Shown: piece by piece, positions 8,742 to 30,550 of the stretch | How the letters are laid out: each line of letters starts with the position of its first letter | Numbering within the stretch: position 1 is the stretch's first letter | Assembly (NCBI GenBank): GCA_009602725.1 | Contig: WELB01000162.1 | Location: forward strand, 124,729 to 159,251 | Origin: Spirogloea muscicola | Taxonomy: Eukaryota > Streptophyta > Zygnematophyceae > Spirogloeales > Spirogloeaceae | Direction: 5' to 3' | Length of the DNA stretch: 34,523 bases | Notes under the pieces: model-generated | What the model was told of the DNA's origin: nothing | What the model saw: only the letters and a program-made list of their open reading frames with translations | Database searches by the model: none | Made by a program: the position numbers and the translations under genes

Positions 8742-8937
8742 GCTCTGGCCAGGGGACCCGCTTCCAGGAACCCAGTCTCTCTGACCTGAGGCTGCTTAGC
8801 AGGGGTTACTTGAGTGCTTCGTAGCTTCTTTTTGTGCTTGTTGTTCTTCGTACTTCCCCTGGCCCCTTCTCGTCCTTTGTTCATTCTTTTTTGAGCTGGC
8901 TTTTTCCAGCCCCTATCCTCAATGGGCGAGCCCTTCA
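8742..8937 (+). mobile_element. 5'-truncated non-LTR remnant with C-terminal motif and hairpin tail
   Basis: Bases 8780-8809 encode SDLRLLSRGY, the C-terminal motif shared by the elements of this window; the following stop is changed to TTG. Downstream are a short 3' UTR and a hairpin tail with the stem GAGCTGG/CCAGCCC at 8893-8913, then ATGGGCGAGCCC. Bases 8742-8810 match the minus strand of 18962-19118. They lack the 75-bp insert found there, so this copy shows the empty site. Bases 8801-8937 match 9815-9955 almost base for base, including the GTGCTTGTTGTTCTTCGTAC block. Confidence 0.82.
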
Positions 8938-8995
8938 TTCACGCACTATGTGACTTCAGCGCCTATACGGCCATGGTCTAGGTCTCATGACAAGA

Positions 8996-9133
8996 CCTCG
9001 TCCATTCTTGTTGGGCCGGCCTTTCACAGCCACTGCCTTAAAATTGGACGAGCTGTTGTATGGACCTTGTTCAATCTTTCTGGGCTGGCATTTCACAGCC
9101 CCCGCCCCCTCTCGCTTCTATGGGAGAGCACTG
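8996..9133 (+). mobile_element. Two consecutive hairpin-tail units
   Basis: Two copies lie head to tail. The first has GTCCATTC then the stem GGGCCGGC...CACAGCC at 9013-9031. The second starts TGGACCTTGTTCAATC at 9061 and has GGGCTGGCATTTCACAGCCC at 9082-9101, followed by CTATGGGAGAGC. No coding remnant precedes either, so they look like tail-only insertions. Confidence 0.75.
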
Positions 9134-9423
9134 CTCACTTCTACTTGAGAAATATAAACAGCCGTTCACTGGGTTGTCAGAGAGACGATCACGGGACGAC
9201 GAGGCGCGACCGGCGCCGGTAACTTCTCGGCAGACGGGCTACTGGCCACGGGGTCGGCGCTCTTAGCCCCGGGTAGCAGGCTGAGGCCGGACTGGTACTT
9301 TCACATCTTTCGACACCTTGCGAGCCTACGGTCCATGGCTACCGGCCTTACACTGGAAGAGTTAATTCTTCTCTCATCACCGGCGGTGCGCCAGAATATT
9401 ACGGCTTTCTAATACTTTTGCAC

Positions 9424-9545
9424 CCCGTCATTCCTTTGTGGGCTGGCCCTTTCTTTCCTTTGGTACAGCCGTCGCCCCCTTGTCAATGTGCTTGCCTTTG
9501 TACTGGCCAAACAGGCCCTTCATCTCTTGATACACACGCTTCCTC
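9424..9545 (+). mobile_element. Broken hairpin tail plus fragment of an 11.4-kb-type repeat
   Basis: CATTCCTTTGTGGGCTGGCC starts a tail whose second stem arm is displaced (ACAGCCGTCGCCCCC at about 9467). From 9487 the sequence TGTGCTTGCCTTTGTACT and the following 40 bases match 11514-11575 and 27672-27730. This is a composite of two repeat types. Confidence 0.6.
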
Positions 9546-9739
9546 CTTGGAAGAAGAAGCAGCTCTTCAGCTTCTCCTTGAAAGAGCAATTTCTCTCACT
9601 TAAGAAAATGCTGCTGTTGACATCGGGTCCCTGAGCGGCCATCAGTAGAAGCCACTTCTCTGCCGAGAGATCTGCGCTTCTGTAAGAGGGCTTCCTCCCC
9701 ACTGAACGCCTGTCCGTCCTTTTTCATGACCTGGTCACA

Positions 9740-9955
9740 CAATCATCGCCCTCTCGTTTTTGGGCTGGCTTTGCCAGCCTCTCTTCTCTATGGGCGCGCA
9801 CTTTCTCTCGTAGGAGGGGTTACTGAGTGCTTCGTAGCTGCTTCGTTTCTTTTCTGTGCTTGTTGTTCTTCGTACTTCCCCTGGCCCCTTCTCGTCCTTT
9901 GTTCTTTTATGGGCTGGCTTTTTCCAGCCCCTATCCTCAATGGGCGAGCCCATCT
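9740..9955 (+). mobile_element. Two overlapping remnants: tail unit, then RGY-stop, UTR and tail
   Basis: A tail with a near-perfect hairpin (GGGCTGGCTTTGCCAGCCT, 9762-9780, then TATGGGCGCGCAC) ends at about 9808. Directly after it comes AGGAGGGGTTACTGA (9813-9825), the last codons of the SDLxLLTRGY-stop motif, followed by the same UTR as at 8.8 kb and a second tail hairpin at 9911-9930. The second element is truncated to its final three or four codons. Confidence 0.78.
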
Positions 9956-10009
9956 CTCTTTCCTCTTCACAGTTACCGCCGCTCCATGTGGAACAGCTTC
10001 TTCTTCGGT

Positions 10010-10070
10010 AAGAGCCACTTCCAGCAGGGGGCGCTGGCTATGATTGGCCAGCCCAGAAATGAAACGAACA
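10010..10070 (-). mobile_element. Hairpin-tail unit, minus strand
   Basis: On the minus strand this reads CATTTCTGGGCTGGCCAATC, then ATAGCCAGCGCCCCCTGCTGGAAGTGGC. It is a diverged tail whose stem is partly lost (GGCTGG/CCAGC). It has no coding remnant. Confidence 0.6.
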
Positions 10071-10379
10071 TTGCCAGAAAAGCGCTTTTGGCTCCGCGAT
10101 TGGTAAAAAAGAAGAAGGGCGTAAACGGGCGGTGGGGGCGGCCTTTACAAGTTGTCCGTAAATCATCGCTTGCTTTTATGCTCAGTTCAGAGAATCTTTG
10201 ATGGTCAACGCAATAAGAGCTTCGTGGCCTGTAAGGCAAATGTTGGAGGGCAAAAGTCTGCCGTATCTGGGTTTTAGGCAGGTTTCAAACGGAGAACCAA
10301 CTGTAAAAGTTATTGGTCATTGCAAGCCAAAATCTTAATTAAGCTTCAGTGCCAGATGCTACGATTTCCTTCTGATACG
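10071..10379. other. Anonymous intergenic sequence
   Basis: Moderately AT-rich sequence between a tail unit and the GC island at 10.4 kb. I see no gene, no strong hairpin and no repeat shared with the rest of the window. Confidence 0.5.
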
Positions 10380-10600
10380 GTGCGGGTGGGCCGCCCGCCC
10401 CCCACGGGGTGCCGCCTACCGCGTGGCGGGCACGTGCCGGTGCGTGCCCGCGGCACGCCCACGGCGCGGCGCCACGTGGCTAGGGCGGCAAAAATCAACG
10501 CTGCGCGCTGGAGGCGCGACGCTGTGACCACCACGTGGTGGCCGGCCCCGCGCCGCATTTGACGCGGCGCCTCGACGCCGCGCCCGCGGCGGCGTGAGCC
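10380..10600. other. GC-rich island with three CACGTG palindromes
   Basis: An abrupt GC-rich block inside AT-richer repeats. It contains three perfect palindromes centred on CACGTG: GGCACGTGCC (10429-10438), GCCACGTGGC (10471-10480) and CCACCACGTGGTGG (10528-10541). No clear terminal inverted repeats bound it. It could be part of another DNA transposon, because a CACGTG palindrome also sits in the inverted-repeat element at 22.1 kb. Confidence 0.5.
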
Positions 10601-10610
10601 GAATGCAAAA

Positions 10611-10830
10611 CATTCTTCCAGTAGAAGGGCGATGGCTGTGATGGCCCACTTGCTGACGTCTTAGGAATCAGTCTCCTGCTCTTCTGCGCCATCCGGCCCT
10701 TATCGAACTTGTCCATTCCTTTGGGAAGGGCTCGCCCGTAGGAAAAGAGGGGCTAACAAAGCCCCTCTTTTTCCCAGAAAAGAAAGGGGCTGGCCTCTCA
10801 CAGCCACCGCTGTCAATCTGGAAGCGCTGC
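10611..10830. mobile_element. Cluster of three tail fragments with a long hairpin
   Basis: A minus-strand tail piece (10611-10640) is followed on the plus strand by 10647-10698. That segment matches the minus-strand 3' UTR at 22756-22800 and 23503-23550 (CACTTGCTGACGTCT ... TGCGCCATCCGGCCC), and runs into a tail at 10699-10720. Next lies a 12-bp perfect stem with a 5-nt loop (AAAAGAGGGGCT 10743-10754, AGCCCCTCTTTT 10760-10771). It is followed by another plus-strand tail with GGGGCTGGCCTCTCACAGCC at about 10788. The arrangement suggests repeated insertion into the same site class. Confidence 0.65.
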
Positions 10831-11009
10831 TTGATTTGATGGCAAGCCCAGAAGTAACGAATAAAGTCCGAAGGTGCCAGAAAAGTGCAAGAGCATAGCG
10901 ACGGTGTGGCCACGGGGTGCTCAATGTCCCCTAGTGATACACACTTCATTCTCCTAACGAGCAGCCGGAAGCTCGAGTGCTCGTAAAGGCCACTAGTGGC
11001 TGGCTTGTT

Positions 11010-11180
11010 CTGCCGGCCCTTCCAGACTTTGTCCTTCGGACCTTTGTCCACAGGGGATGTTGAGCACCCAGTGGCCACTTGAGTCGCTGTGTGCTTTCAC
11101 GCTTGTCTATTCCCTTCGAACTTTGTTCAATCCCTTTTCTAGGCTGGCCAATCACAGCCATCGCCCTCTACTGCGATCAG
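11010..11180 (+). mobile_element. Hairpin-tail fragments
   Basis: CCGGCCCTTCCAGACTTTGTCC at about 11013-11034 is a headless tail start. A full tail follows with AACTTTGTTCAATCCC, then GGCTGGCCAATCACAGCC (11142-11159) and ATCGCCCTCTACTG. No coding remnant is attached to the second. Confidence 0.65.
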
Positions 11181-11404
11181 CTCCTGCCGCGGCAGTCGAC
11201 ATCTTTGGCTGTCTGGGTCCTCGCTTGCACACTCTCCTTCAGAATATTGCCAATTTAGGCTACACACGACGTGCAGATGGCTGAGATGGGCTTGCCAGCT
11301 GCATATCTGTCGTTCTTGCGACGACGAGTTTTGGCCTGTTTGCAGCGTGCTCAGGCTAATGCTTGGCACCAGAACGCTGGGCGAGCTCTGGTTGGTGGCA
11401 GAAG

Positions 11405-11580
11405 GGCTCCGAATCTGACATGTAGTATTCAGGCATCGATTAGCGACCTTCATCTATTGACCCGTGATTATTCAGCGGGTCAATCTGCTGTAGGTTATGT
11501 AGGTCTTCAGATGTGCTTGCCTTTGTACTTGGCCATTTGGCCTTCGTTTGTTCTAAATACACGAAGTTTTCTACTGGAAT
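11405..11580 (+). mobile_element. Non-LTR remnant, second 3' UTR type (partner at 27.6 kb)
   Basis: The codons at 11442-11471 encode SDLHLLTRDY; the expected stop is TCA here. The roughly 170-bp unit aligns with 27572-27730 over its whole length: TATTCAGGCATCGATTAGC before the motif, GCGGGTC after it, then GTGCTTGCCT..GTACTT and GGCCTTCGTTTGTT. The partner keeps TGA, so this copy has lost its stop. GACCCG and CGGGTC flank the motif end and can pair. Confidence 0.8.
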
Positions 11581-11584
11581 AGTC

Positions 11585-11960
11585 TTTTCTCTGTCCATCG
11601 CTTCTGGGCTGGCTTTTCAAAGCCCCCGCCCCCTTCGGAGAAGTCAACCTTGTACAAGACCTTTTGGCTGGCGCTCTCACAGCCATTGCTGACATTGCAA
11701 GAGCTCTTGTTCCGAATAGTTCCGTGGTTCTTGCACCTGTCGGCCCTTTCAGACCTCGGTTTCCTTTGTGCTGCCTCTCACGGCCAGAATTACATTGAAA
11801 GAGCGTTTCCTCTCTTCCGGGCTGGCTTCTCACATCCTTCGCTCCCTTCGCATGTAGCGGATACTGTGGACCTTGTTCAACTTTGTGGGCTGGCAATTCT
11901 CAGCCCTCCGCCCCTTTGGACGTGCTGCTTCTTCTTTGTCGTGGACCTTGTTCATTCTTG
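11585..11960 (+). mobile_element. Array of four or five hairpin-tail units
   Basis: Consecutive plus-strand tails: GGGCTGGCTTTTCAAAGCCC (11606-11625), GGCTGGCGCTCTCACAGCC (about 11667-11685), a half-unit at 11736-11790, GGGCTGGCTTCTCACATCC (about 11819) and GGGCTGGCAATTCTCAGCCC (11887-11906). A 14-bp direct repeat, GTGGACCTTGTTCA, occurs at 11866-11879 and 11941-11954 on either side of the last unit. It is either a target duplication or two tandem unit starts. Confidence 0.75.
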
Positions 11961-11979
11961 CTCATGCTTTTGTGTTGCA

Positions 11980-12375
11980 TGTCACAGACTGCAGCTTCCG
12001 CTATGTTTGCAGCGATCCCAAGCTCTGGCTATTCAGCCAGAGCTTGGGATCAGCGTGCTGGGCGTGCTCTAAGCCAGGCATCCAGCTTTCGTGGCGGTGC
12101 TCCGGCTTCCCAAGTCAGCCTGTCGGATCTTGATGTGCTCACTTGTGGGTACTGAAGTCCCCCTTCGGCCGACTTCGGCAGTGTTAGTTTAGGCCCCCTT
12201 AGCATAGGGCTCCTCTTCATGTAGCCCGTTCTTAGCACCAGCTCTTGCTGAAAAATGTCTTGGCCTGATTTGGCATCATTCGGGCTTTCTTTTATGTACA
12301 CCCAATACCTTCTCTCTATCTCTCTTTGTGGGCTGGCTTTTCACAGACCTCGCCTTCTTCTGAATGAGCTTCTTC
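11980..12375 (+). mobile_element. Non-LTR remnant A: coding end, long 3' UTR and tail
   Basis: The frame ending at 12155 reads FRGGAPASQVSLSDLDVLTCGY-stop in pieces, with SDLDVLTCGY-stop at 12123-12155. A long UTR follows with GCATAGGGCTCC..CATGTAGCCC (about 12200-12230), and a tail with GGGCTGGCTTTTCACAGACC at about 12332-12351. Remnant B at 12.5-12.8 kb and the element at 19.6-19.95 kb share this UTR. A 17-bp perfect palindrome sits at 12014-12051. Confidence 0.8.
12014..12051. repeat. Perfect 17-bp inverted repeat, 4-nt loop
   Basis: GATCCCAAGCTCTGGCT (12014-12030) and its exact reverse complement (12035-12051) flank ATTC. The homologous position in remnant B (about 12770-12795, minus strand) has only one arm. 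The second arm therefore arose in this copy, for example by a snap-back inverted duplication. Confidence 0.95.
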
Positions 12376-12529
12376 TCTTGACGAGTAGTTGTGTCTTTCC
12401 TGTGATGGGCCCGGCGGTGGTGCTCTGTTCGGGAAAAGCGCCTTGTTAGTCATGCAGAGCAAAAGGCTAAGTTCAAAGGCAAAACTATTGACACATGTCA
12501 ATGTAGGTGATTGACCTACAAGGGGCAGG

Positions 12530-12835
12530 CGCGTGGTCCGCATGCAATGGAAGGGAGGCCAGATCAAGCCGATGATATATTCAGGCAACCTAGGCTGGGG
12601 CTACACAGAGCGAAGCCCTATGCTGAGGAGGCTTCAACTTATGAACCTGGCTGAAGAACTTCAGTTCTCACGAGTGAGCACATACAGATCCGACAGGCTA
12701 ACTCGGGGAGCCGGAGCACCGCCATGGAACTCAGTGGCCTTGCTTGGTGCGCGCCCAGCACGCCATTCAATAAGCCAAGCTTGGGAGCGCTGCAAACTCA
12801 GCGAGAGCCGCATTATACGACATGCAACCCGCGCC
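12530..12835 (-). mobile_element. Non-LTR remnant B, opposite orientation to A
   Basis: On the minus strand the coding end reads FHGGAPAPRVSLSDLYVLTREN-stop in outline, with the motif and stop at 12661-12693 (the final GY is replaced by EN). The UTR has GCATAGGGCTTC..TGTGTAGCCCC and then TGGCCTCCCTTCCATTGCATG (about 12540-12560). The same order is seen in remnant A and at 19.6-19.95 kb. A and B form a large inverted pair about 0.5 kb apart. Confidence 0.8.
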
Positions 12836-14504: not shown

Positions 14505-15977
14505 TCACAGGGCGTAGTGGCCGCTGTTCTTGTTCCGGAGCTGCAGCTGCAGGAAGCGGACGTACTCGATCGCCTGGTCCAGCATTGTGGCAGTGTCGAG
14601 CCGGTTGCCGTTGGGCACAAGTGTCTGCAGCGTGCGCAGCTTGCGGCTGATGCGCTCGCGACGGGCGCGCGCCGCCAGCGACTGGGGATCCGTGGCGGTG
14701 CCTCGCTTCTGCCGCGGCTTCGCTGGCTCCAGCACGGGCGACATCTTGGTGCCATCGGCGCCGACAGCAGGTGCAGGTGGAGACTCGCCCTCGTTGTCAC
14801 CCTCGTTGTCGTTCTCATTGTCGTTCTCATCCTCCTCGAAGGGGCTGGCCAGGGCTGCAGCTTCCACATCAGCAGCGGGCGACGCCGGCGAGAGGGGCTC
14901 AAACTTGGCCGCAGGCATGGCCTCCAACTTTGCTGCTGCAGGGAGTGCCGCTGCTGCAAGGGCCACGGCTGCCGTGGGTTGTGCTTGCTCCGCGCAGACG
15001 CGCTTGGCTGGGCGGGGGCAACTGGCAGACGGTGCAGAAGAATCCTCCTGGGAGGAGTTCTCAGGCTGCCATGCAGCTTCGCGGCGGACCCGCTTGCCAG
15101 ACGACCCCGAGCTCGCCGATGTGCTGACCTCGTTGATCTCCGGCAGCAGGAAGAAGCGGGGGGGCGCCCAGTCGCCAACGCCGCCGCAGCCGGGCTGGTC
15201 GAGGTTGGCGAGCAGCGACGAGTCAGGGAGGCCTGCGTCGTCCATGCACAGGAGGGCGTCGCACCAGTTCTCGGGCTCGCCGCCAAGCGAGAACTCCGCG
15301 AGCGGATCGAGGTGATGGGACATCTGCGGCGCTGGCGGCGCTGGCGCGACGGCGGCGGAGACGGGCGACGGCGTCGCGGGTGCGGCGATGGCCGTCGTGG
15401 CCGGCTCGGCCGACTCCTCGCACTGCTCCGCCAGCAGCAGGCGGCTGGAGTCGCCGCCGCCGAGCATGGCCAGGGCTTGGCTTGCCGGGCTGGCCCGCAG
15501 CCGCTCCTGCTGCTGCAGCAGCTGCAACTTCCACAGCAGCTCGTTGGAGACGCCGCCGGGCAGGACGCTGGTCGGGCTGCCGCCGCCGCCGGCGCCGCAG
15601 CCGCCACCGCCGCCGAACATGGCCTGCGCCTGCTGGAGGTGCTGCAGCTGCTGCTGCTGCTGGATCTGCTGCTGCTGCTGGATCTGCTGCTGCTGCTGCT
15701 GTTGGGCGGCGGCCTGGACGAGCAGGGCGGGCGGCATCTGCGGCGCGTGGGGCTGCTGGAGGGCCAGCATCTGGGCCAGCTCCGCGTGGCCGAAGCCCGG
15801 CGGCGGCGGCGGCGGCGTAGCGGCGGGCTGCTGGGGCTGGCGGGCGCGGAGCTGGCGCAGGAGCGAGAGCGCGGCGGCCTGCTGCAGCAGCGGCTGCGGG
15901 AGGCCGTTGAGGCCGGCCAGCGCGCCGGGGAGCTGCTGGGCGATCACGCCGGCCACGAGCTGCTCCATGGCGGACAT
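14505..15977 (-). CDS. bHLH transcription factor, group VIII/RSL-like, intronless
   Basis: A single exon of 490 codons. The start at 15977 ([11 protein letters not shown]) is chosen because upstream sequence is GC-driven open frame without a convincing ATG. The C-terminal bHLH (about residues 428-481) reads [34 protein letters not shown] and [10 protein letters not shown], closest to land-plant group VIII (RSL/HEC) proteins. In the basic region the E-box residues His5 and Glu9 are Gln and Ala, while Arg10, Arg12 and Arg13 remain, so canonical E-box binding is doubtful. The middle is low complexity: poly-Gln (CTG runs on the + strand, 15648-15705), Pro- and Ala-rich, with an acidic DEN-rich block just before the bHLH. 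It probably dimerises and acts in the nucleus. Its target genes cannot be told from the sequence. Confidence 0.9.
15648..15705 (-). repeat. Interrupted CAG (poly-Gln) repeat in the bHLH gene
   Basis: Runs of CTG on the + strand, broken by GAT, encode three blocks of glutamines separated by isoleucine or leucine in the bHLH protein. Such tracts are prone to length change between strains. Confidence 0.95.
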
Positions 15978-17137
15978 GGCGGCCCGGGGGGAAGGAGGGG
16001 GGTGTGGGCGCAAGAGTGGCAGACTTGAGGCGCGGGGTCGAGGGGTTTTGAGCTCCGAGGCGGGGGCGGGGGGGGGAGTTCCGGGCGCCGGGGCTGGCGG
16101 GCAGGGCGTGCGGGGCGGCAGTGGTTGGAGCTGCCGGAGCTGCCCCCCCCCCCCGGCACCGGTTGCACGCCCCCGCTGAGCGCCTCGCCCGACGGCCCCC
16201 TCCCGCGGCGTCTCCCCCTCCCCTCTCGGGCGCAGGGCCCAGATCGTGGCGTGTCTCGTGGGCGGCACCAGCACCTCGCCGCGGACGGGCAGAAGCCTGG
16301 GCTCCCCCCTCCCCGCCGGGGCCCCCGGGTCCGGGACGTCTCCTGCAGGCCCTGGCCGCAGCGGCGCTGGCGTCGTGTACCTCCCAGGTACACTCCGGCG
16401 CCACCCGGGCGCTGTCGCAGCCTGCCGCCCAGGTGAGCTCTGCGGAGGCCAGGGGGCGCCCGCGCCCCGACTGCACGACCCGCCCTGGGCGGCCAGCCTG
16501 GCGCCCGGTAGAGCGGCTGGGGGGGGGGGGGGTTGCCCTGGGCGAAGCGGTCGGAACGAGCGGACTGCCAGTATCATCGTCAGAGCGGGTTGGCTAATCG
16601 TGGGGGGAGATCCCCAATGTTCGCAGCCCCCGATGCGCGCCAAGCGGCGGCCCGGCCCCGCGGCCTAAGCGGCTCGGCTTCCACCATATCTGCACCCTTC
16701 TGGTGGAAGCGCCGCGCTCGCCGCGGCGGTGGGTTTCATCGTCAAGCGGAAAGCCGCTTCCGCCGACGGCTCCCCGAGGCGGTTCGCCCCGTCGCCCCCC
16801 GCGGTACGCTCTCGTCGCCACCCGGTCGCCGGGATTTGCAGTCCGATACGAGGCTCGCGCGCTCGCCCCCAGCAACAACAGTTACCCGCTCGTGCGACGA
16901 TCTTTTCGGGCGGGGCCCACGAACCGCCGCTGCGGGGGCCGCGGGGCCGGGGGCGTGCCCGCATCCCCCGCCGCTACTCACGCCACTTGATGCGGGAGGT
17001 TGGCCGGCACCCCGGGGCTGGCCCGTGCGGCACGCCGCCCGTCGCGACCGCTCGTGCCCCGGCCGCCGTCCGCCCCGCTGTGGAAGACGAAGCAGCTCTT
17101 GGCCTGTGGAAAGCCAGCCCGAGAGAGAGAGTCACTT
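15978..17137. promoter_or_regulatory. Upstream region of the bHLH gene; GC island
   Basis: It should hold the bHLH promoter. It contains homopolymer runs (C at 16143-16152, G at about 16518-16532) and a very GC-rich, probably unmethylated-type island at about 16640-17090. GTGGAAGCG with the nearby complementary TTCCACC (about 16680-16710) can pair. No TATA-like element or gene was identified. Confidence 0.4.
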
Positions 17138-17530
17138 CCAGTAATGGGCGATGTCAGTGATTGGCCAGCCCATGAAAAAGTGACAAAAGCCCGACAGTAT
17201 TGACAAGGTCCAGGAAAGAGTAAGCTGGTAAGCTCCGGCACCCCTCCCTTCTCCTGCTCTGCACACAGGCGCCTTCTTCTGGCTGTGCTACATGCACATC
17301 AGCGTGCTAAGCCTGGGCCACTGGCTTTTGTGGTGGTGCTCCGGCCTCTCAGACTTTCCCCCTGAATTGATTCCAATTTCTCTCTTCCTTTCTGTTTTTT
17401 GAACTGTGTTCTTGCTTGCTTTGGCCTTTCTCTCACCTTATGCGCATCGCGCGCCTCCTCTTCGGCGAGGATAGGGGCTGGAAGAAGCCAGCCCAAAAAA
17501 GAATGAACGAAGGACGAGAAGGGGCCAGAT
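17138..17530 (-). mobile_element. Hairpin-tail units and fragments
   Basis: Minus-strand tails lie at 17138-17215 (AAAAGTGGCC-type end, GGCTGGCCAATCACTGAC) and 17465-17530, whose stem is GGGCTGGCTTCTTCCAGCCCC (17474-17494). Between them, at 17308-17352, the plus strand has GCTAAGCCTGGGCCACTGGC and GGTGGTGCTCCGGCCTCTC, a piece of the remnant A coding end without the final motif. The block TATGCGCATCGCGCGCCTCC (17438-17457) recurs in variant form at about 19317 and 24040. Confidence 0.65.
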
Positions 17531-17734
17531 GGGTAGCCCCCATTTCCGCACCTGGCTTCCTGTCTGAACGGTGTATCGGCGTGATTCGGCCTCCTCATTA
17601 GCTGTGAGAGGCCAGCCGGAAGGAATCTACCAGGTCTGAAATATCTCCCGATGCACGCGCACCGCGCGCGCCCTCGTTTTCCCTCACGGCCCACCCAAAA
17701 CACCGGGGGTGCTTGGAAAGAAGGAAAGACTCTT

Positions 17735-17998
17735 CCAGGAGTGGGTGATGGCTGTCATTGGCCAGCAAAGAGAGTATGATGGCCAGAACCCGCTGCCCGC
17801 CGCTGCCCACCGCGCCTTCCCCGCCGCGCAGCGCGCCGCAGCGCCGGGCGCAGCAGCGGCTGCGGCGGCGCGAGCTCCGTAGACCTCGCCGCATCTCCCG
17901 ACGACCGCCGCGCGGCGCGGCGGGCTCTCCGGGGTCCGCTGTGACAGGTACCGCCCCTGAGACGGGTATCGCTCGCTGAGACAGGTATTTTGTCAGAT
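17735..17998. mobile_element. Hairpin-tail unit and GC island with short tandem repeat
   Basis: A minus-strand tail (GGCCAATGACAGCCATCACCC) spans about 17735-17780. A GC-rich block at about 17786-17935 follows. It ends in three imperfect repeats of about 19 nt, each with TGAGACRGGTAT or similar (17940-17990). The block has no recognisable gene. Confidence 0.5.
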
Positions 17999-18029: not shown

Positions 18030-18530
18030 TTGGCGCCTTTCCGGCCCTTTGGACCTTGTTCATTCTTTCTGGGCTGGCCACTGACAGGCCCTTGCCCCCT
18101 TCGGAACGAGCTCACTTCTTGTTACCGCCGCCGCAAGAGAGAAGTGGCACTCCCAATGGGGGCAAGGGCTGTGAAAAGCCAGCCCGAAAAGAATTGACAA
18201 AGGTTCGAAGGGGCCAAATGACGGAGGGGCAAGAACAGAGGAAAAGAGGGAAAAGAGAGAGAAACTCTTCCAATAGTGGGCGATGGCTGTGATTAGCCCA
18301 GAAGGAGGCTCGCGGTGCGCATTGAGTAAAAGGGTGGCCAATTCAAGCAATACACTCTTCAAGCAAAAGCTAGTGTAGAACGAGCGCTAAGCTAAGGTGG
18401 CTGAGGTAAAAGAAGGTGAAAGAATGAACAAAGATCAAAGGGGCCAGAAAAGAGAGGGAGACTCTTCCATTGGAGGGCGATGGCTGTGATTGGCCAGCCC
18501 AGAAAATGGAATGAACAAAGTTGGCAGTGG
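18030..18530. mobile_element. Four hairpin-tail units on both strands
   Basis: Plus-strand unit at about 18040-18120 (GGCCCTTTGGACCTTGTTCA, stem GGGCTGGCCACTGACAGGCC at 18071-18090). Minus-strand units follow at 18141-18235 (GGGCTGGCTTTTCACAGCCC, 18166-18185), at 18262-18305 (shortened) and at 18461-18530 (GGCTGGCCAATCACAGCC, 18482-18499). None carries the coding motif, so they look like tail-only insertions. Confidence 0.75.
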
Positions 18531-18889: not shown

Positions 18890-19118
18890 CGTAGGAAGGG
18901 CTCGCCCATTGAGGTCATGGGCTGGGAAAAGCCAGCAGGAAAAGCCAGTAGAATGCACACTGTAACCCCTGCTAAGCAGCCGCAGGTCAGAGAAACTTGG
19001 CTCCTGGAAGAGAAGTGGCTCTCCCAGTGGGGGCAAGGGCTGTGAGAAGCCAGCCCGAAAAGAATTGACAAAAGTTCCCAAAATGACTTGGCTCCTGGAA
19101 GTGGGTCCCCTGGCCAGA
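18890..19118 (-). mobile_element. Non-LTR remnant interrupted by a 75-bp tail insertion
   Basis: On the minus strand SDLRLLSRGY is encoded at 18962-18991, as in the 8.8-kb copy. A further tail (GGCTTTTCCCAGCCC, then GGGCGAGCCCTTCC) lies at 18890-18955. The upstream part of the remnant is split by the insertion at 19011-19085. Without it, the sequence matches 8742-8810. Confidence 0.85.
19011..19085 (-). mobile_element. 75-bp hairpin-tail insertion with 16-bp target duplication
   Basis: ACTTGGCTCCTGGAAG occurs exactly at 18995-19010 and again at 19086-19101. The 75 bases between form one tail unit, minus strand, with stem GGGCTGGCTTCTCACAGCCC (19037-19056). The paralogous site at 8761-8776 has one copy of the target (three differences) and no insert. 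Long, exact flanking duplication plus an empty site shows transposition. The duplication length suggests target-primed reverse transcription. Confidence 0.93.
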
Positions 19119-21670: not shown

Positions 21671-21681
21671 CTGCAAGTTAC

Positions 21682-21850
21682 TCGGACTTGCTGCTGCTCA
21701 CCCGTGGGTACTGACCTTTCCTTTGCGTTGTGTCGTGTCTAGCTGTGTAGCTTTTCCTTTCGGCACCTTATGTGGCTCTTTAGATTTTGTCCATTCTTTT
21801 GGGCTGGCTTTGCCAGCCCCTCTTCTCTATGGGCGAGCAACTTCTTTCTT
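21682..21850 (+). mobile_element. 5'-truncated non-LTR copy closest to the 30-kb element
   Basis: It starts with SDLLLLTRGY-stop (21682-21714), identical in peptide to the end of the 30.5-kb element. A UTR with GTGTAGCTTTTCCTTTCGGCAC follows, then the tail TTTGTCCATTCTTTTGGGC with a perfect hairpin GGGCTGGCTTTGCCAGCCC (21801-21819) and TATGGGCGAGCAAC. The order and spacing match the 3' end of the 30.5-kb element, which ties the tail to the element. Confidence 0.85.
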
Positions 21851-21869
21851 GAGAAAGAAGAAGCTCTTC

Positions 21870-22070
21870 AGAGGTAAGGTGATGGCTGTTGAAAAGATAT
21901 CGTATATTTGGAACAATCGAAACTTTAGGGTTTAGTGGCCAAAATGGCCAAGGTGATGGCCGTTGAGAGGCCAGCCCTGCATCTATTCGGCTCTTTGGAT
22001 TTTGTCCTTTCTTTTAGGGCTGGCCTCTGCCAGCCCCTCTTCTCTATGGGCGCGCAAATTCTTCTTTAGC
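21870..22070. mobile_element. Two partial tails and one full tail
   Basis: Minus-strand halves lie at about 21880-21900 and 21950-21981 (GGGCTGGCCTCTCAACGGCC). A plus-strand full tail at about 21983-22060 has GGGCTGGCCTCTGCCAGCCC (22017-22036) and TATGGGCGCGC. Confidence 0.7.
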
Positions 22071-22077
22071 CCACTTG

Positions 22078-22484: not shown

Positions 22485-22494
22485 TAGGTACCAA

Positions 22495-22680
22495 GCTTTC
22501 TGCGCCATCCGGCTCCTTCAGACCTTGTCCATTCCTTCGGGCTGGCTTCTCTCACAGCCACCAGTCAATTGGGCCGCGCTTTCCAATTTCCAAATGCTTC
22601 TTAGCCCGAAGGGAAAAGACTCTTCCGGTAGAGGGCGGAGGCTGTGATCGGCCAGCCCAGGAAAAATAATAAACAACCAG
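22495..22680. mobile_element. Facing hairpin-tail units
   Basis: Plus-strand unit with CTGCGCCATCCGGCTCC, CAGACCTTGTCCATTCC and GGGCTGGCTTCTCTCACAGCC (22539-22559). Minus-strand unit at about 22621-22678 (CTGGGCTGGCCGATCACAGCC). They face each other across about 40 bp. Confidence 0.72.
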
Positions 22681-22840
22681 CTCTTCCAATTTGACGGCAA
22701 TGGCCGTGAGAGGCCAGCCCAAAGAAACGTACCAGGTCTGAAGAGGAAAAAGGCCGGATGGCGCAAAAAGCAGGATAGTATTTTCCAAGACGTCAGCAAG
22801 TGGGCTCTCAATAAGCTCTGGTCGACTAGTGCAAGTCAAT
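22681..22840 (-). mobile_element. Non-LTR remnant with third UTR type
   Basis: On the minus strand a decayed motif (DLH, stop, S, TRAY-stop; 22808-22840) is followed by GAGAGCCCACTTGCTGACGTC, then TTTTTGCGCCATCCGGCC and a tail with GGGCTGGCCTCTCACGGCC ending near 22681. The UTR recurs at 23503-23590 and 10647-10698. Confidence 0.78.
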
Positions 22841-22932
22841 ACAAGAAAAAACAGCTCTTCCAAGTTGACAAATCCAGATTGACAGCAATGGCTGCGAGAG
22901 GCCAGCTCAAAGGAATGGACAGGGTTCTGATA

Positions 22933-23492
22933 AAGAATGGCGCGCCCTGAGAGAAGAGGGGCTAGCAAAGCCAGCCCAGAATAGAATGGACAATGTCCGC
23001 AGGCCTCAAAGGCCACAAAACGGTGCCCGGCAAGACAAAATTACACACCGATAATGATGCAGATGGATGCTAAGTAATCCCGAGTGAGCGACAGCAAACT
23101 AGAGTAACTCGAAGCAGTCGAAGCGGCTTTCCGCCGAGACCCTGAGGCAGCAGCCATTGCGCGGCCAGCGCGCGTGGACCGCGTGAGCCAAAGAGCGCTG
23201 GAACGAGCGTGTGAACCGGTCCGCTCGCCCCCGTGCGCGCAGCGGAGCATGTGGGCAGCCAGCGTCGCAGGAAAAGCAAGCGCGGCTAGATCAACTGGTG
23301 GTTGGGAGAGGCCAGCCCAAAGGAATGGACAAGGTCTGAAGCGTCGCAGGGTCGCAGGGTCATCGTGGCGGGCACCACACTCGCACAGTTGGACCCCGAC
23401 GAGGCAGGGAGGGAGGAGGCCCAGAAGCCGGTGGACCGCCGTCCTGAAAACCTTGTCTGGTATTGTGAGCGCCCCGTAGATTGGGAGCCGGA
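22933..23492 (-). mobile_element. 560-bp 5'-truncated, internally deleted copy of the 30-kb element
   Basis: It aligns with the minus strand of 30405-30690 and 31065-31262. Shared blocks include TVHRLLGLLPPCLVGVQ, CECG, HMLRCAHGGERTG and the end SLLSLTRDY (23074-23103). About 370 bp corresponding to roughly 30690-31064 (the endonuclease region) is missing. TTCTGATA flanks it at 22925-22932 and 23493-23500, an 8-bp target duplication. Its 3' end carries a tail hairpin with GGGCTGGCTTTGCTAGCCCC. Confidence 0.9.
23272..23339 (-). mobile_element. 68-bp hairpin-tail insertion with 11-bp target duplication
   Basis: AGCGTCGCAGG occurs at 23261-23271 and 23340-23350. The 68 bases between are one tail unit: on the minus strand TCAGACCTTGTCCATTCC, then TTTGGGCTGGCCTCTCCC, with its second stem arm damaged. 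The unbroken paralogous sequence in the 30-kb element (31116-31126, AGCGCCGCAGG) proves the insertion. Confidence 0.93.
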
Positions 23493-23624
23493 TTCTGATA
23501 GGGCCGGATGGCGCAAAAAGCAGGATACTAGTCTCCAAGACGTCAGCAAGTGGGCTCTCAATAACCTCTATTCAGTAAGTGCAATTCAGAATGTTTAGAG
23601 CGGAAAAGCGTCGCCCTGACGGAA

Positions 23625-23870
23625 ACCGGAGGCAGCAGCAAAGGCCAGCCCTGCACACAAGCGACGGCAAAGGACGAACAAATAGTTGACGGAGCCCAAA
23701 GCGAATGGACGGAGACAAGGCTGTGGCTCCCAGAGGCCAGCCCGAAAAAGTGGACGAGGATTGGGGTAATGCACAACCTAAGATGATATTTCTTCCAGCT
23801 AAAAGCAAGCAATCTCTAATGAGAGCCACTTGGTCGCCCCAAGTCAACAGCCGCAAGTCGGAAGAGAGTG
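23625..23870 (-). mobile_element. Hairpin tail and a motif-bearing fragment
   Basis: A minus-strand tail spans about 23700-23775 (CTCGTCCAC, GGGCTGGCCTCTGGGAGCC). Upstream of it a fragment encodes SDLRLLTWGD (23833-23862) in the minus frame, a decayed version of the shared C-terminal motif. Confidence 0.65.
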
Positions 23871-24333: not shown

Positions 24334-24361
24334 NNNNNNNNNNNNNNNNNNNNNNNNNNNN
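24334..24361. other. Assembly gap of 28 N
   Basis: A run of N inside a GGC trinucleotide repeat. The gap size may not equal the real missing length, so a start codon or coding repeat of the downstream gene could be lost in it. Confidence 0.99.
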
Positions 24362-24391
24362 GGCGGCGGCGGCGGCGGCGGCGTGCTTGGC

Positions 24392-26602
24392 ATGCAGCCC
24401 AGCGCAGGCTCGGCGGCGGGCCTCCTGGGTCACGCTCCGCCAGGGCTTCTCGCGGCGGGGGTCCCGTCGCCCCAGCCGCAGCCGGCGAAGCGCGCCCGCG
24501 TCCGCCGGGTCTCCTGGTCCTCGGCCCTCACCCAGGTGGCGGCGAGCCCGCTGCCGCGCCTGCGCTGCCAAGACCTTCCGCTTGCATGGCATCCGTGCTA
24601 CCGGGGCCGCAGCCGCGCAGAGGCAGCGAGCTAGCAATATATGCCTCTCGTTTGTCCATGGCGTCTCTGACGCTGAGATCTTGACGAGACGAGGCTTCAC
24701 GCCCGTGCGGCACTGGCAGGTGCGGCTGTTCCTCGCGGAGGACGCGCCGGTGCTGGCAGGCGTCACACAGCACCTGCTGCAGCAAAAGCAGAAGCTGCTC
24801 GTGGAGAGTCTGCCGCCGGGCTTTGGCAAGCCCTCGCCGGGCAGCAGTGATGCTAATGCCGCGGCACAGACCACCGCCGCTGTTGCATGGCGAGTTCCGG
24901 ACATGGTCAGTAACTCACCTGCCTGCTGTATGCCGAGCGGCTCCACATTCTGGTGCCTGCAGCTTCGTAAGTCCGCCATGGCGACGGGCCGCCCTGCGCT
25001 TGCTGTGCTGCGACGCGCCCGCGCCACTTTAGCTTGGCGCCGCGGTCTCGCGCTCGTGGATCAGGTCGCGCTGGAAGCGGAGTGGATGGTAGCTGCCGGG
25101 GACGAGAGCGACGAGGCGCGGCTGCAGCGGGAGCGAGAGCAGCGGATCTTCGAGGCGGTCTACCCACGGGAGTCCTCCATTCCCGGCAGGTAGGTGTGGT
25201 CAGGGCAGCGCGCCGGTTGTCTGCACCACAACCATGGCCTCAGAGTATGCCACGAGAGGAACGATTGAAATGGCGCGGAGTCTCAGGCTCAGCCGTCAGG
25301 CGTGCGTGCTGGCGCTGCCTGTGCCTGCAGCCCCGCCGAGCCGGAGGAGGCACAGGCGCCACAGGACGACACTGCGACGCCGATCATCAGCCCCGTGCCG
25401 ATCGATGACGAAGAAGGACTTGAGCACGACGGGGATGAGGCTGCTGCTGTAACCAGTGCCGCTGTGGTTGCAGCCAGTCCTGCTGCCTCGGTGGCTGCTG
25501 CAGCGGCACCAGCTGCAGCGAGTACGCCGTCGGGCGGCCAAGAGTATGACCATGACTTGCTGGTGAAGCTCCTCAGCGACCCCGCGTTTGTCAGCGCGCT
25601 GGCGAGCCAGCCGCATGCGGCCGGGCCTGGCAGCCCTGCCGAGCTGATTGCCATGCTCCAGCGCTCCGCCACCGGGCCCGCTAGGCTGCCACTTCCTGCA
25701 GTCACTGCTGCAGCCGCCGCCACTGTCTCTGCCACTACTGCTCCTGCCGTCCCTGCCGCCGCTGCTGCCGCTGCCGCCGCTGCTGCCGCTGCCGCCGCCC
25801 GGGCGAGCAGTTCGCATGGGCAAGGGTGGGTATCTGCTCCTCCGCCACTTCCGCCAGGGCCGCCCCCCACGCGCGCATCGCTGCAGCAGCAGCAGCAGCA
25901 GCAACCACTGCCTGCGCTGCCTGTTGCTCTTGAGGCCAGGCGCCCTCTGCCGCAGCCCCGTCTGCCGGATGTGCTTGAGCACATGACTGCCACGTCGGCA
26001 GCACGTGATCCTGCGCTGCTGCTCGCTGCCAACACCCACCAGTTGCTCTCAGCGGCAGCGCCGCAAGGTCATTCTCTGCGGCCCAAATTCCAGCCCCCAT
26101 TGCCGCCAGGCCCTCCTCCTGCTCGGCACCTCCATAACGGTAACGCATACATGGGCCACCCGCCACCCTCCACCGGCGGCGACGTCTACCACCCGCCAGC
26201 TCCCATGGGCGTCAGGTTCCACGACCCGGGCAGAGCCCAGCCCCAACCCCGGCCTGGCCTGCAGCATCCAGACTTGCTCCCGATGCAACATCCTTTGCGG
26301 CAGCTGCAGCAGCAGCAGCCGGAGGCCATGTTTGTGCAGCGAGGGCCAGTGGCAGAGCTTGAGCAGCTCCATCCATGGAAGCTGAGCCTGCCCGGTGGTG
26401 TCGGGCGATCTGGGCAGCCTCCCAGTGCCGCACCCCGACTGGATGCCTTTGCTTCACTGGGCATGGGCCCTGGTGCAGGGGCGCCACCCCCTCCTCTCCC
26501 CCCCTACCCTTCTATGCATTCGCAATTCCACGAGCAGCATGCTTCCCTTCCGCTTGGAGTAGGTGAGATTGGCGCTCCTCCTCGCTCCCTGGTCGAGCAC
26601 AT

Positions 26603-26680
<78 letters not shown>

Positions 26681-26852
26681 GAGGCGGCAGCAGCAACCGC
26701 AGCAGCAGCGGCGGCGGGGCAGGCAGCCCGAGCCTGGTGGGAGAGGCGCGCGGGGGCGGGGTTCGAAAAGGCATTGCGCCTTCTATCGCACGCCCAGCGG
26801 GTGCCGCAATGGTACAAGGTGTGAGTACCTGCATGAGGGCAGGGTCGATTGA
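24392..26852 (+). CDS. CCCH zinc-finger protein, plant C3H6-like, poly-Gln-rich
   Basis: Proposed exons 24392-24535, 24720-24905, 25065-25189 and 25331-26852 (TGA) total 1977 nt in frame, about 658 aa. Family blocks cross the introns: KRARVRRVSWSSALTQ joins VRLFLAEDAP, then LPPGF, WRVPDM joins VALEAEWMVAAGDES, REQRIFEAVYPRESSIPG, and DDTATPIISPVPIDDEEG. A single C-terminal zinc finger of spacing C-x8-C-x5-C-x3-H (CAFYRTPSGCRNGTRCEYLH) ends five residues before the stop. Plant proteins of this kind are nuclear and probably bind RNA or DNA; the exact role is not known. The middle is Ala-, Pro- and Gln-rich, with 25 glutamine codons at 26607-26681. The start at 24392 is the first ATG after the assembly gap and could be too short. 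Clean splice sites are GTGGCG, GTCAGT and GTAGGT. Confidence 0.85.
26607..26681 (+). repeat. CAG repeat encoding poly-Gln
   Basis: Twenty-five in-frame glutamine codons, all CAG but one CAA, near the C-terminus of the CCCH protein. The near-pure tract is expected to be length-variable. Confidence 0.97.
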
Positions 26853-27571
26853 CCTGATTCTCGCTACTATTGGGTGAATCCGAGAATCACACAGTGGAAT
26901 GGAGGTATAGCCAATATGAGTAACAAGGAAGCATGCAACTCCTCAAAGCGCAAAATTTGAGTGGCATGCAACACATCCCGGTAAACATTGCAGTTATATG
27001 AAGGGAATGGCGGCGGCTGAGGCCATGCTGCGCCTAGGACCATGCTGGGGAAAGCCATACACAAAATCAGATCTTAATCCAGAATTGTTCATGCAAGAGG
27101 AATGACAGCGTTGTGTATACAAGTTGAGCGCTTGTTGTAGACGTTGCTGTCAAAATGTAGAAGCTGAGGTGGTGGAGCTCTTGCAGCCTTGCTACACCTC
27201 AAGCTTTTCAGGGGGACATGTAGAACCTTATAGCGGTAGGGTCTCGCTCATGAACTCTGTAAGGTTGTTTTGCACCTTGAGTACGTGTGCATCTTGTCAT
27301 TGTCAGAGTCAAGAAAGCTGCAGCAAACCCACGACTGACGATCATGGCACTTGAGCTGGCTGTTGCATCGACATACATATACCTGCTCAACACTGGCCTG
27401 GCAGGCCAAATCCACTCTACTGCCCATCTCTTGATTGCATGGACATACTACAGCGAGGCTGAGGCACTGCTAAGTTGCAGCCTCTATAGAAGCACAAGCA
27501 TTGTAGTATTGCATGTTTTGCACTTTGAAATGTACTGTGTGAAGCCTATCGTGGCTGAAAGGTGCCCTTTG
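26853..27571. other. 3' flank of the CCCH gene
   Basis: Probable 3' UTR and intergenic DNA. A TGTAA on the + strand at 27258-27262, 406 nt past the stop, is a candidate poly(A) signal. No gene was recognised. Confidence 0.45.
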
Positions 27572-27730
27572 AATCTGCCATCTGGTATTCAGGCATCGAT
27601 TAGCAACCTGTATATATTGACTCGTGGTTACTGAGCGGGTCGATTTGTAGTGGGTGATGTACGTCATTAGGTGTGCTTGCCTCTGTACTTAAGCCAGTTT
27701 GGCCTTCGTTTGTTTCAAATATACGACACT
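27572..27730 (+). mobile_element. Non-LTR remnant, second UTR type (partner of 11.4 kb)
   Basis: It encodes SNLYILTRGY-stop at 27602-27634, keeping the TGA lost in the 11.4-kb partner. Shared blocks are GTATTCAGGCATCGATTAGC, GAGCGGGTC, GTGTGCTTGCCT and GGCCTTCGTTTGTTTC. It is about 4 kb from the nearest tail cluster, so it is a separate insertion. Confidence 0.82.
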
Positions 27731-28230
27731 TAGTTTGTAGCTGCAGTGCTTATTCTGCAGCCCTGTGCTCGACTGGCGATCGGGATCAGAGGTTGCTTAT
27801 ACTTGTTCTCAGTTTCTGCAAGAGGTACTGTGCACTCATTCAATGTGATTGTCACACCATTATGCACATATTATTGCTGTCACAAGCAATACACTCTTTG
27901 TAGAACTGACAACTCGCACAAGGCTGCTTGAAATGCAGTTACAGCTGGCTTGTCTGAGGGCATACACTGTGGAAGTTTGCATTCATAATGTGAAGCCTTT
28001 GACATAGAAGATGCAAGAAGAGTCTGAGTCTCTCTGTGTGTATGTTGCATCCGATGATGCAACCGCATCCACTTGCACGCAGAGCTTGCACATTACAGTG
28101 CGCACCTGGAGCTCTGGCAGTATAGAATGTCCTCACCAACTTGAAATGGGACTATGAGTACGGCCTACTTGCTTGACCTGCACGTGCGTCAAGGTCTGTA
28201 AGAAAGTGCTCTGTACTCAGGCTGTGAGCA
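27731..28230. other. Intergenic and ankyrin-gene 3' UTR
   Basis: Low-GC sequence without a recognisable gene. The ankyrin gene's 3' UTR enters from the right on the minus strand. Confidence 0.5.
28093..28097 (-). promoter_or_regulatory. Candidate poly(A) signal TGTAA of the ankyrin gene
   Basis: TTACA on the + strand reads TGTAA on the minus strand, 134 nt downstream of the ankyrin stop codon. TGTAA is the usual poly(A) signal of chlorophyte algae. A single five-base match is weak on its own, but position and strand fit. Confidence 0.5.
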
Positions 28231-29706
28231 TCAAGGCATCAGGTCAGCATGGCTCTCAACTTGGAGGCTGCTGGTGCTGCGGGCCGCAAGAGCAAGGTCG
28301 ATGGCCTGCACAAGCGCGGCGTGGCCCTGGCTGAGGGCCTCATCCACGGGTGTCCTCTCGTGCCTGTGGCATGGGATCCACTTGCAGTATATCAGGCGGA
28401 CGACTATTTCTGCTTTGGCACATGAGGACCATAGCCAGCCAGGCTCTCTGTAACAAGTAAAGACAGCCCCTCGCTGACGGGAGCTATCACTTCTAGCAGC
28501 GGCAGTGCTGGATTCTTGATCGTCCTGCTTTTTTCATGAATATCTTGACTGACCAACTTGAGGTGGCAAGTTACCAAGAAAGCACCCAAGCCGCACAACA
28601 AAGCCAATCTACTTCAATAACTGACTCAAGCTAGAGACTTAGGCAACCTGCGGCTGCGAGGATGCGGCAGGCATGTTATGACTAGTCACCAATCCCCTTG
28701 TCTGACCTGGGAAAAGTGGGCCAAGGCGCTTACTGATTGAGAGCAGCCGGGTCTGCACCTTGCTCAATGAGCAGCTCCACCACCTGCAGATAGCTCAGTC
28801 AAGCAGATTGCACCGACATTCTCGGGTTTAGGTGGGTTTAGGTGCTTGGGTGGCTTACACACTGCACTTTCTGGTGTGCTGCCGAATTGATGACCAGGAT
28901 CCAAGTCAGCAGACACAGCGCTAGCTGCTTTGGCACTTCACTTGCAGCATGAGGTGCACAAGCATGTCCTGTGCAGGCCAGCAACAGGTGTAGACTGCAG
29001 ATGCACCTGCTGGTGGCCGTTGAGGGCGGCCCAATGCAGGGCTGTGGAACCTTCCAGATTGCATGCACTGACGTCCTGCGGCGGCAGAGCCGGGCAACCA
29101 AGAACAGCTTTTAGAGTGCCTGGATTGCGATAGACGTCACCGATACTTGTGGATGTTGACGAGGGTGCTCCAGCCTGGCCTGCCGACCAAAGCGGAATGC
29201 AAATGTGGCATTCACCTACCGCTTGGCCGCTACCAAGGAGAAGCCGCACGATGGTGGTATTGCCATTGGCAGCGGCCATGTGCAGCGCTGCAGCGCATCA
29301 GGGCAGCGCCAGCAGTGGCGCTGTCAGGGTCCTCGTCGCAGCTGCTGCCTCCTAGCAGCTGCATGGAGGCAGGGGTTGCCCAACTCGCCACCTGTCCTGC
29401 CGAGGTGGTCGGCAGCATCAGCGTGTGCGCCTGCCGCCAGCGCTGCCGCCACGTCGACCTCGTCGCCATACCGTGCGCCCTGAAGTCGAAATGGGTCAGA
29501 GTGCAGCTAAGCGGCAGAGTTCCACTAGACGCAGCATGGCTGCAGCAGTGCCCGTGGCTGCTGCGTCCCGTTGCAAGGCAGCCACGCACCTCCAGCAACA
29601 GTGTCTGCGCCTCATTGGGGCCCCTGTCAGTGGCGGGCTGCTCCTCAGGCGCCCCATGCCCGGCGCCACCAACCGCATCGTCTTCAGGGGATGTGCGCGG
29701 CACCAT
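28231..29706 (-). CDS. Small ankyrin-repeat protein (YAR1-like)
   Basis: Six exons in transcription order, 29706-29590, 29479-29392, 29287-29220, 29075-29007, 28783-28734 and 28363-28231 (TGA), join in frame to 525 nt, 174 aa. A short acidic N-terminus (about 39 aa, ending NEAQTLLLE) precedes GARYGDEVDVAAALAAGAHA and then two full ankyrin repeats: GRTALHMAAANGNTTIVRLL and GSTALHWAALNGHQQVVELL. A last partial repeat, ERTPVDEALSQGHAALVQAI, follows. Exon junctions fall inside repeats and restore the consensus each time, which supports the model strongly. Size and layout match the YAR1 group of two-to-three-repeat ankyrin proteins; yeast YAR1 is a chaperone of ribosomal protein Rps3. The function here is inferred from that likeness only. 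The start is the first in-frame ATG. Confidence 0.85.
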
Positions 29707-30389
29707 TGGGACGCTGGTTGCGGTATTGGGCAGCCCTAGGCTCCGGGCATGACGACGGTGTCGTGGAATCCGAGATGATGCCGCTTTTAGCGGCACTAGC
29801 AAGCCGCAGGTGCCCGAGCTTGCTGTGCGAGAGCTTCTGCACTTCGCGAGTCTAGCAGCAGCAACCCAGTCGCCAGCAGCAGAGGGCTCTTGGGCCTGCG
29901 CTGCGACCCTGCTTCAAGTCAGCGCCGTCCATGCGCCTGATTGCAATGGCGAGCTCTTGTACGAGACAAACGTGGGGTTCAGCAACCACACATCCGCTCA
30001 GGCTCATGGCCCTCCCGGATGCGCAGCGCTTGGCGCAAAAGCAATGTGGGCAAGGTGCCAGTCACAGCCACCCCTGCCGCTGTCGACAGCAATATGTCCT
30101 GTCGCTGCTCTGGCGGTGCTCATGTCCGAAGCCGGCTGTCACTTGGGCTGCGCTCGCCGCGGCATGTGGTCGTGGATGATGGCTTGTAGTGGGCATGCAT
30201 GTCTGGGGCTGTGTGAATAATAGTGCCCTTATGACAACTCCCAACCCCAGCATGGTGACCCCAGATGCTTTCCTCCTCGTCGAGTGTAGCCCCACTGGCA
30301 ATGTGGGCTGAATGAGAGTTGTTGCTTTGGTTCTTAGCTGTTGCTTCATTGCTCAAAGCTTCAATCCCACTCCACTCGCGCATACTAGA
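29707..30389. other. Upstream region of the ankyrin gene
   Basis: It should hold the ankyrin promoter. A plus-strand frame from about 29810 to 30220 and two overlapping frames are open but have no recognisable domain and unremarkable composition. I leave them unannotated. A divergent plus-strand gene exon cannot be ruled out. Confidence 0.4.
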
Positions 30390-30550
30390 AGAGAGGGAGA
30401 GAAGGGGAAGGGCTCGCCCATAGAAAAAGAGGGACTGGATAAGCCAGCCCAGAAAAGAATGGACATTGTCCGCAGGCCTCAAAAGGCCACAAAACCGTGC
30501 CAGGAAAGAAAAAACTACACACCAAGACACGAAGTGATGCAGATGGATGC

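Follow-up and report, generated by a model that had tools for sequence, protein, structure and literature searches.

The DNA analysed here is a 34,523-nt stretch of the Spirogloea muscicola genome (contig WELB01000162.1, positions 124,729 to 159,251 of the forward strand), which as a whole is called the window. It contains many copies, on both strands, of a short unit carrying a potential hairpin. These units are not an independent repeat but the ends of the 3' untranslated regions (UTRs) of long interspersed nuclear elements (LINEs), and the solo units are tiny 5'-truncated LINE copies, down to about 70 nt. Taken as a whole, it is highly probable that the units constitute the 3' tails of a large number of related non-LTR (LINE) families of this green alga, where they would serve as the part of the RNA bound by the reverse transcriptase (RT).

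Tail units in the window and in the genome

A preliminary description of this DNA had reported at least 30 hairpin-tail units of about 70 nt on both strands. Using a profile hidden Markov model (HMM) iterated from LINE tail ends, 28 units were identified in the window at E<0.01, on both strands and from 8878 to 30465, and none in any of 20 random windows with the window's dinucleotide frequencies. A covariance model trained on 39 diverse copies, seven of which were window copies, gave 36 units at the same threshold, a few of them overlapping each other. Both searches agree with the reported recurrence. The fixed length did not hold, since homology to other copies extended upstream from 38 nt up to the 700-nt limit of the comparison; one of 143 tails matched no other copy. 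Because insert length varies as well, the 70-nt unit is best described as the portion retained by most copies. Rfam gave no match at the gathering threshold.

The strict pattern ATTCN{2,7}GGGCTGGCN{3,8}AGCC recovered five window copies and nothing in 100 shuffles. In the 153-Mb assembly (471 contigs) the same pattern had 13,991 exact matches, 7024 and 6967 on the two strands, and the reversed pattern only one. As the pattern catches only five copies in the window, the total number of units in the genome is probably several times larger than this count. The units of the window are the following, with the E-value of the covariance model in brackets.

30412–30477, minus: tail forming the 3' end of the window's own LINE (1.4e-15)
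8866–8931, plus: tail unit (3.7e-20)
8987–9053, plus: tail unit (4.7e-10)
9056–9129, plus: tail unit, model seed (1.6e-17)
9414–9489, plus: degenerate tail unit (1.5e-6)
9735–9799, plus: tail unit (9.4e-11)
9888–9949, plus: tail unit (6.4e-17)
10016–10082, minus: tail unit (3.4e-9)
10698–10783, plus: weak tail unit, overlaps the next (0.0082)
10768–10875, minus: weak tail unit (2.9e-6)
10787–10817, plus: partial tail unit (profile HMM and covariance model)
11112–11178, plus: tail unit, model seed (2.3e-16)
11580–11644, plus: tail unit, model seed (5.6e-14)
11791–11855, plus: weak tail unit (0.0042)
11862–11925, plus: tail unit (2.4e-15)
12301–12369, plus: degenerate tail unit (6.2e-7)
17133–17197, minus: degenerate tail unit (1.5e-5)
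17457–17521, minus: tail unit (5.9e-15)
17588–17643, minus: degenerate tail unit (2.3e-4)
17730–17790, minus: degenerate tail unit (1.3e-4)
18045–18109, plus: tail unit, model seed (4.1e-18)
18147–18211, minus: tail unit (4.2e-22)
18265–18333, minus: weak tail unit (0.0027)
18386–18442, minus: weak tail unit (2.4e-4)
18462–18529, minus: tail unit, model seed (3.6e-16)
18900–18971, minus: tail unit (7.7e-8)
19018–19082, minus: tail unit inside a 75-nt insertion (1.3e-19)
21776–21838, plus: tail unit, model seed, with a LINE C-terminus (..SDLLLLTRGY*) 123 nt upstream (2.9e-21)
21991–22055, plus: tail unit (2.3e-20)
22514–22579, plus: tail unit, model seed (1.5e-15)
22620–22676, minus: tail unit (1.7e-10)
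22680–22745, minus: tail unit (4.6e-9)
22878–22927, minus: tail unit (2.8e-9)
22940–23004, minus: tail unit (9.7e-18)
23280–23343, minus: tail unit overlapping a 68-nt insertion (1.4e-12)
23707–23768, minus: weak tail unit (0.0027)

Tail units as the 3' ends of LINE elements

For 20 LINE copies, the 2 kb downstream of the RT were retrieved. In 14 of them, from four young families (three copies of family A, four of B, four of C and three of E), a pairwise identity of 94.8–100% ended at the tail or at most about 13 nt beyond it. In the family to which the window's LINE belongs, a 111-nt query had 42 other matches in the genome that started 12–32 nt into it, at or just past the end of the tail. 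This bears out the earlier proposal that the retrotransposon at 30.4 kb has the unit as its 3' end. The tail thus constitutes the last 55–60 nt, approximately, of the LINE 3'UTR. The codons preceding this UTR were ..SDLxLLTRGY-stop or close variants, at 102–149 nt before the tail end.

Considering all the loci examined, LINE C-terminal codons were present 60–220 nt upstream in 77 of 143 tails. Furthermore, the class of the tail agreed with the lineage of the open reading frame (ORF) in 60 of 68 cases over the four named classes (T1/2, 25/27; T3, 18/21; T5, 9/9; T4, 8/11), these two counts being not fully independent because some loci overlap.

Several cases weigh against this assignment. The other six of the 20 LINE copies did not give the same boundary. 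They include family F, with two copies carrying the tail, whose 3' boundary is unproven because in one of them a stretch of N begins one base after the tail; L081, with a tail and no sibling copy; L080, which is chimeric; L082, which reads N; and L083, which has a different end. In addition, 66 of the 143 tails had no LINE ORF nearby, and in class T6/7 ORF links were found in only 6 of 25.

Three other observations concern LINE 3' ends. At L074 (941–1002) a T1/2-like tail follows the end of a T5-lineage ORF, so that tails may have been exchanged between lineages. A second LINE-like 3' end, with the C-terminal codons followed by GTGCTTGCCTTTGTACTTGGCCATTTGGCC.. and lacking the GGGCTGGC tail, is located at 11386–11530 and 27546–27690 of the window (77% identity) and also at L083; it resembles a sister lineage that ends differently on the 3' side. 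Finally, an inverted pair of 106-nt repeats (12053–12158 and 12658–12763 of the window, 81% complementary) is apparently made of LINE C-terminal fragments.

Tail-only insertions and target-site duplications

Two insertions consisting of little more than the tail were delimited in the window by exact target-site duplications (TSDs) and by loci with the empty site.

19011–19085, minus: 75-nt tail-only insertion; 19 empty-site BLAST matches in other loci (19 loci)
18995–19010, minus: TSD of the 75-nt insertion, copy 1, 16 bp, exact
19086–19101, minus: TSD of the 75-nt insertion, copy 2, 16 bp, exact
23272–23339, minus: 68-nt tail-only insertion within a fragment of a LINE ORF; 28 empty-site BLAST matches (24 loci)
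23261–23271, minus: TSD of the 68-nt insertion, copy 1, 11 bp, exact
23340–23350, minus: TSD of the 68-nt insertion, copy 2, 11 bp, exact

Outside the window, insertions of 131 nt (15-bp TSD) and 99 nt (11-bp TSD) had empty sites at three loci each. These four inserts were taken from the 20 listed among 152 candidates of the empty-site scan, a validation that favours insertions into repeats. Other candidates, for example L072:945 (715 nt, 15 bp), L074:681, position 9798 of the window, L002:607, L079:960 and L072:316, were set aside, either unverified or attributed to probable homology among pieces of LINEs.

The fixed 3' end, the 5' truncation and the TSDs are those of target-primed reverse transcription. 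A fixed target site was not seen: the 14 bounded copies had varied flanks and the TSDs delimited in other copies differed from each other, the junction being often C/T-rich. When TSDs were searched without empty sites the support was less clear: 22 of 137 copies scored at least 9, a modest excess over 12 permutations (mean 11.3, maximum 15.3), and at a score of at least 12 there was no clear excess (4 of 137, against a mean of 2.6 and a maximum of 4.4 in the permutations). For this reason the TSD claim rests on the empty-site cases. Among four full-length copies, one was flanked by GACATTAG on both sides and the other three lacked a clear TSD.

These boundaries bear on the possibility that the copies are satellite DNA or arose by tandem duplication without transposition, as the density of the clusters and the spacing of about 100 bp in some tandem pairs could suggest. 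Such an origin is refuted for the validated insertions, and does not agree with the near-equal numbers found on both strands of the genome, so the copies are not random satellite DNA and we consider this explanation hardly conceivable for the family. The preliminary description had named the lack of insertion boundaries as evidence against its reading; such boundaries do exist.

The short units could also belong to a separate family of short interspersed nuclear elements (SINEs) that has a promoter of its own and a tail taken from a LINE. The very large number of short copies, the tails without LINE codons upstream and the near uniformity of one T4 subfamily would fit with this. However, the four validated inserts have four different lengths (68, 75, 99 and 131 nt), several T4 tails join a LINE UTR and C-terminal codons, and a 5' head common to the T4 copies listed, as a partner SINE with the same tail would have, was not seen by eye. 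A SINE family is therefore improbable, and truncated LINE copies are preferred.

Many T4 tails are identical among the matches listed (of 1417) and some are paired at approximately 97–112 bp, identity and pairing that would correspond to a recent burst or to tandem duplication. At L084 (near 1323), L030 (277–315) and L079 (960–997), a tail-to-tail inverted junction and head-to-tail partial tails were observed. It seems that older tails, or sites next to them, receive new copies.

Conservation of the tail and its hairpin

The tail comprises, in this order, the box GTYCATTC (GTCAATTC in one class), a pyrimidine run, the hairpin GGGCTGGC-loop-CAGCC, a segment that differs among lineages (in some of them TGGGCGAGC) and a few C/T-rich bases. 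The 3' segment CGCCC..TATGGGCGAGC that had been given as part of the unit is present, but it is just one among at least four lineage-specific forms of the 3' half. Comparison of ten representatives (38 pairs) between lineages revealed 88% identity in the 5' half of the tail against 57% with shuffled partners, 70% against 55% in the 3' half, and 71% against 61% at the end of the LINE coding region, while the UTR before the tail was at about the shuffled level (54% and 51%). Therefore, what is conserved in the 5' half is the sequence, and the 3' half is lineage-specific.

Such conservation could also arise if the tail were a processing or termination signal for the 3' end of the LINE transcript, kept because the RNAs must end there, and not an enzyme-binding site. 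The position of the tail at the extreme 3' end, the fact that no poly(A) run was seen at the copy ends inspected and the conservation of sequence instead of pairing are in favour of such a signal. By itself it leaves unexplained why the 3' half of the tail follows the ORF lineage, and we regard it as rather unlikely as the sole role; both roles can coexist.

The variation of the stem had been taken as the trace of a conserved RNA structure, since most copies could still pair. Pairing was indeed possible in 91.5% of the stem cells of the 39 diverse copies, but the shuffled expectation was the same (91.2%) because the alignment columns hardly vary. The hairpin 5' arm was almost invariant in the profile-selected sample, whose alignments are biased towards GGGCTGG, and stem length changed chiefly on the 3' side.

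Folding of ten tails gave z-scores between −4.46 and −0.32. In seven of these tails the expected hairpin was part of the lowest-energy fold, so that a hairpin is likely in many families according to these models. With respect to the conserved 3'-terminal stem-loop of a stringent-type LINE, the terminal sequence is common to the lineages and the stem-loop appears in that same proportion of best folds, with no covariation.

Against a conserved structure stand the following results. Three of the ten tails, namely that of family F, a window copy of class T6 and the tail of the LINE in the window itself, folded with other pairing, and z-scores were near background for both T4 copies (−0.3 and −0.3) and the T5 copy (−0.65). 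None of the six stem pairs was changed on both sides in the 39 diverse copies and 500 of 500 shuffles reached the observed covariation score; RNAalifold gave five pairs, none changed on both sides either. No covariation was thus seen in the stem, contrary to the interpretation first given to its variation.

Two additional stems were rejected. An upstream GGAC/GTCC hairpin had 66.0% paired cells against 65.7% in shuffles. An outer stem of GTYCATT with AATGGGC was suggested by folding in several families, but when 3' segments were swapped among 40 copies the own partner was not preferred (p=0.19), again at odds with a conserved fold. No coevolution of this stem is apparent because T5 5' boxes pair better with T1–T3 3' segments (−9.36) than the T1–T3 boxes do (−7.89).

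A fold maintained by selection for compensatory changes, to which the proportion of paired cells and the low z-scores of some families (A, −4.5; B, −3.2) would point, already fails on this sample given the lack of two-sided changes, the shuffles, the swaps and the tails folding otherwise, and we judge it quite unlikely in general. A sequence-conserved tail at the 3' end of the LINE, with a hairpin likely in many families, remains the reading that we follow.

The LINE element and its protein

From its motifs, the element is predicted to encode one protein with zinc-finger-like motifs, RT, a CCHC-like motif and a restriction-like endonuclease (RLE), followed by the short UTR and the tail. The window copy is broken and comprises the following pieces.

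30551–30553, minus: stop codon ending the LINE ORF (..SDLLLLTRGY*), 138 nt before the tail end
30385–30975, minus: ORF piece with a putative endonuclease remnant (..FADVVTAD..DAFAALAVDV..), compared by eye in the alignment
31016–31864, minus: ORF piece with linker and CCHC-like motif (CECG..H..C)
31904–32446, minus: ORF piece with RT containing YADD; RVT_1 E=0.00018, under the Pfam cut-off; at least 150 genome homologues
32284–32787, minus: ORF piece in another frame (broken copy)
32738–33688, minus: ORF piece in which a C2H2-like motif (CQHCQTTFITRSGRANHERACPH) was recognised by eye, without Pfam match

The scored homologues of the RT fragment in the genome included several near-identical groups. 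In the L016 ORF (family C), whose first part looks foreign, RVT_1 was detected above the Pfam cut-off (E=9.6e-12), as in an RT of LINE kind. The best RT relative was 42% identical, and the nearest named relatives came from Closterium, a zygnematophycean alga, and from the sponge Ephydatia.

The L016 ORF also contains a CCHC-like motif and RADLV..IIADVV..KERKY, aligned with 17 relatives. In this 18-protein alignment the three C were invariant and H was present in at least 90%. The putative RLE core, recognised as a motif, has KERKY (KX2KY) and both D, with SH for the usual RH and AD for the usual PD. KX2KY is given as an RLE variant of the catalytic lysine in the part of PMC5678591 that deals with these motifs, where the CCHC knuckle of RLE LINEs is CX2-3CX7-8HX4C; the spacing here, CX1CX12HX3C, departs from that rule.

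At the 5' end, a first set of segments had no shared element sequence, and the next set had it in two copies of each of two families, with one shared start point per family. Two C2H2-like motifs were recognised by eye near the 5' end of family A.

Host genes or gene pieces are also present in the window: a bHLH factor (14505–16643, minus), an SBP-box factor (6881–7699, minus), a possible CCCH zinc finger below the cut-off (25302–26852, plus) and an LpxC exon (18–491, plus). Over 309 residues, the bHLH protein shares 90% identity with a eukprot protein of Spirogloea muscicola (SM000010S04188).

Proposed mechanism and relationship with known systems

By analogy, the tail is most likely of the kind present in stringent-type LINEs, with recognition by the reverse transcriptase. 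The element's own RT would bind the tail RNA and start target-primed reverse transcription at a nick, which would often stop early and leave tail-only copies; if synthesis tends to abort shortly past the hairpin, truncation at about 70 nt would be the result. According to the relevant passages of PMC4176376, stringent-type LINEs need a 3' stem-loop and the ZfL2 protein binds its own; passages of PMC5135761 describe conserved 3' stem-loops in green-algal L1 as well. In UnaL2, ZfL2-1, ZfL2-2 and green-algal L1 the LINE RNA has a 3'-terminal stem-loop, as would be the case here. Recognition was demonstrated in ZfL2, whereas here it would be exerted by an element with a predicted RLE. The ZfL2 authors proposed, in the same part of PMC4176376, that stem and loop are read by different regions of the protein, conserved in the first case and variable in the second. 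A tail whose 5' half is shared and whose 3' half depends on the lineage would fit with this picture.

With R2 and other RLE LINEs (CRE, R4, NeSL, HERO and Utopia), as portrayed in the sections consulted of PMC5678591 and PMC4640811, the element would share the single ORF, the zinc-finger-like motifs, the RT, the CCHC-like motif and the RLE with KX2KY. Unlike the site-specific RLE clades (R2, CRE, R4, NeSL and Utopia), it showed no fixed target. R2 needs a 3'UTR of about 250 nt, as stated in an excerpt of PMC5135761, against a tail of about 60 nt here.

Conserved LINE 3' stem-loops and RLE LINEs needing their 3'UTR, such as R2, are already known. As far as our searches of the open-licence PMC literature go, a compact tail common to several RLE-like lineages in one streptophyte alga, together with tail-only stubs, has no prior report.

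A tentative idea, somewhat doubtful at present, is that the tail is a two-part address. A conserved protein region would recognise the shared 5' module (GTYCATTC, pyrimidines and GGGCTGG) through its sequence, and the diverged 3' module would make each lineage copy only its own RNA. If this were true, about 70 nt would be enough for insertion and LINE lineages competing in the same genome could have a common reader and yet exclude each other's RNAs.

A natural signal of about 60–70 nt would be compact in comparison with the R2 3'UTR, and the presence in one genome of a natural set of tails, each corresponding to an ORF lineage, would make the template specificity of RLE LINEs testable by tail swaps. 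Repeat annotation may file such reverse-transcription stubs as unknown short repeats, and the repeat zones of this algal relative of land plants would be partly built from them.

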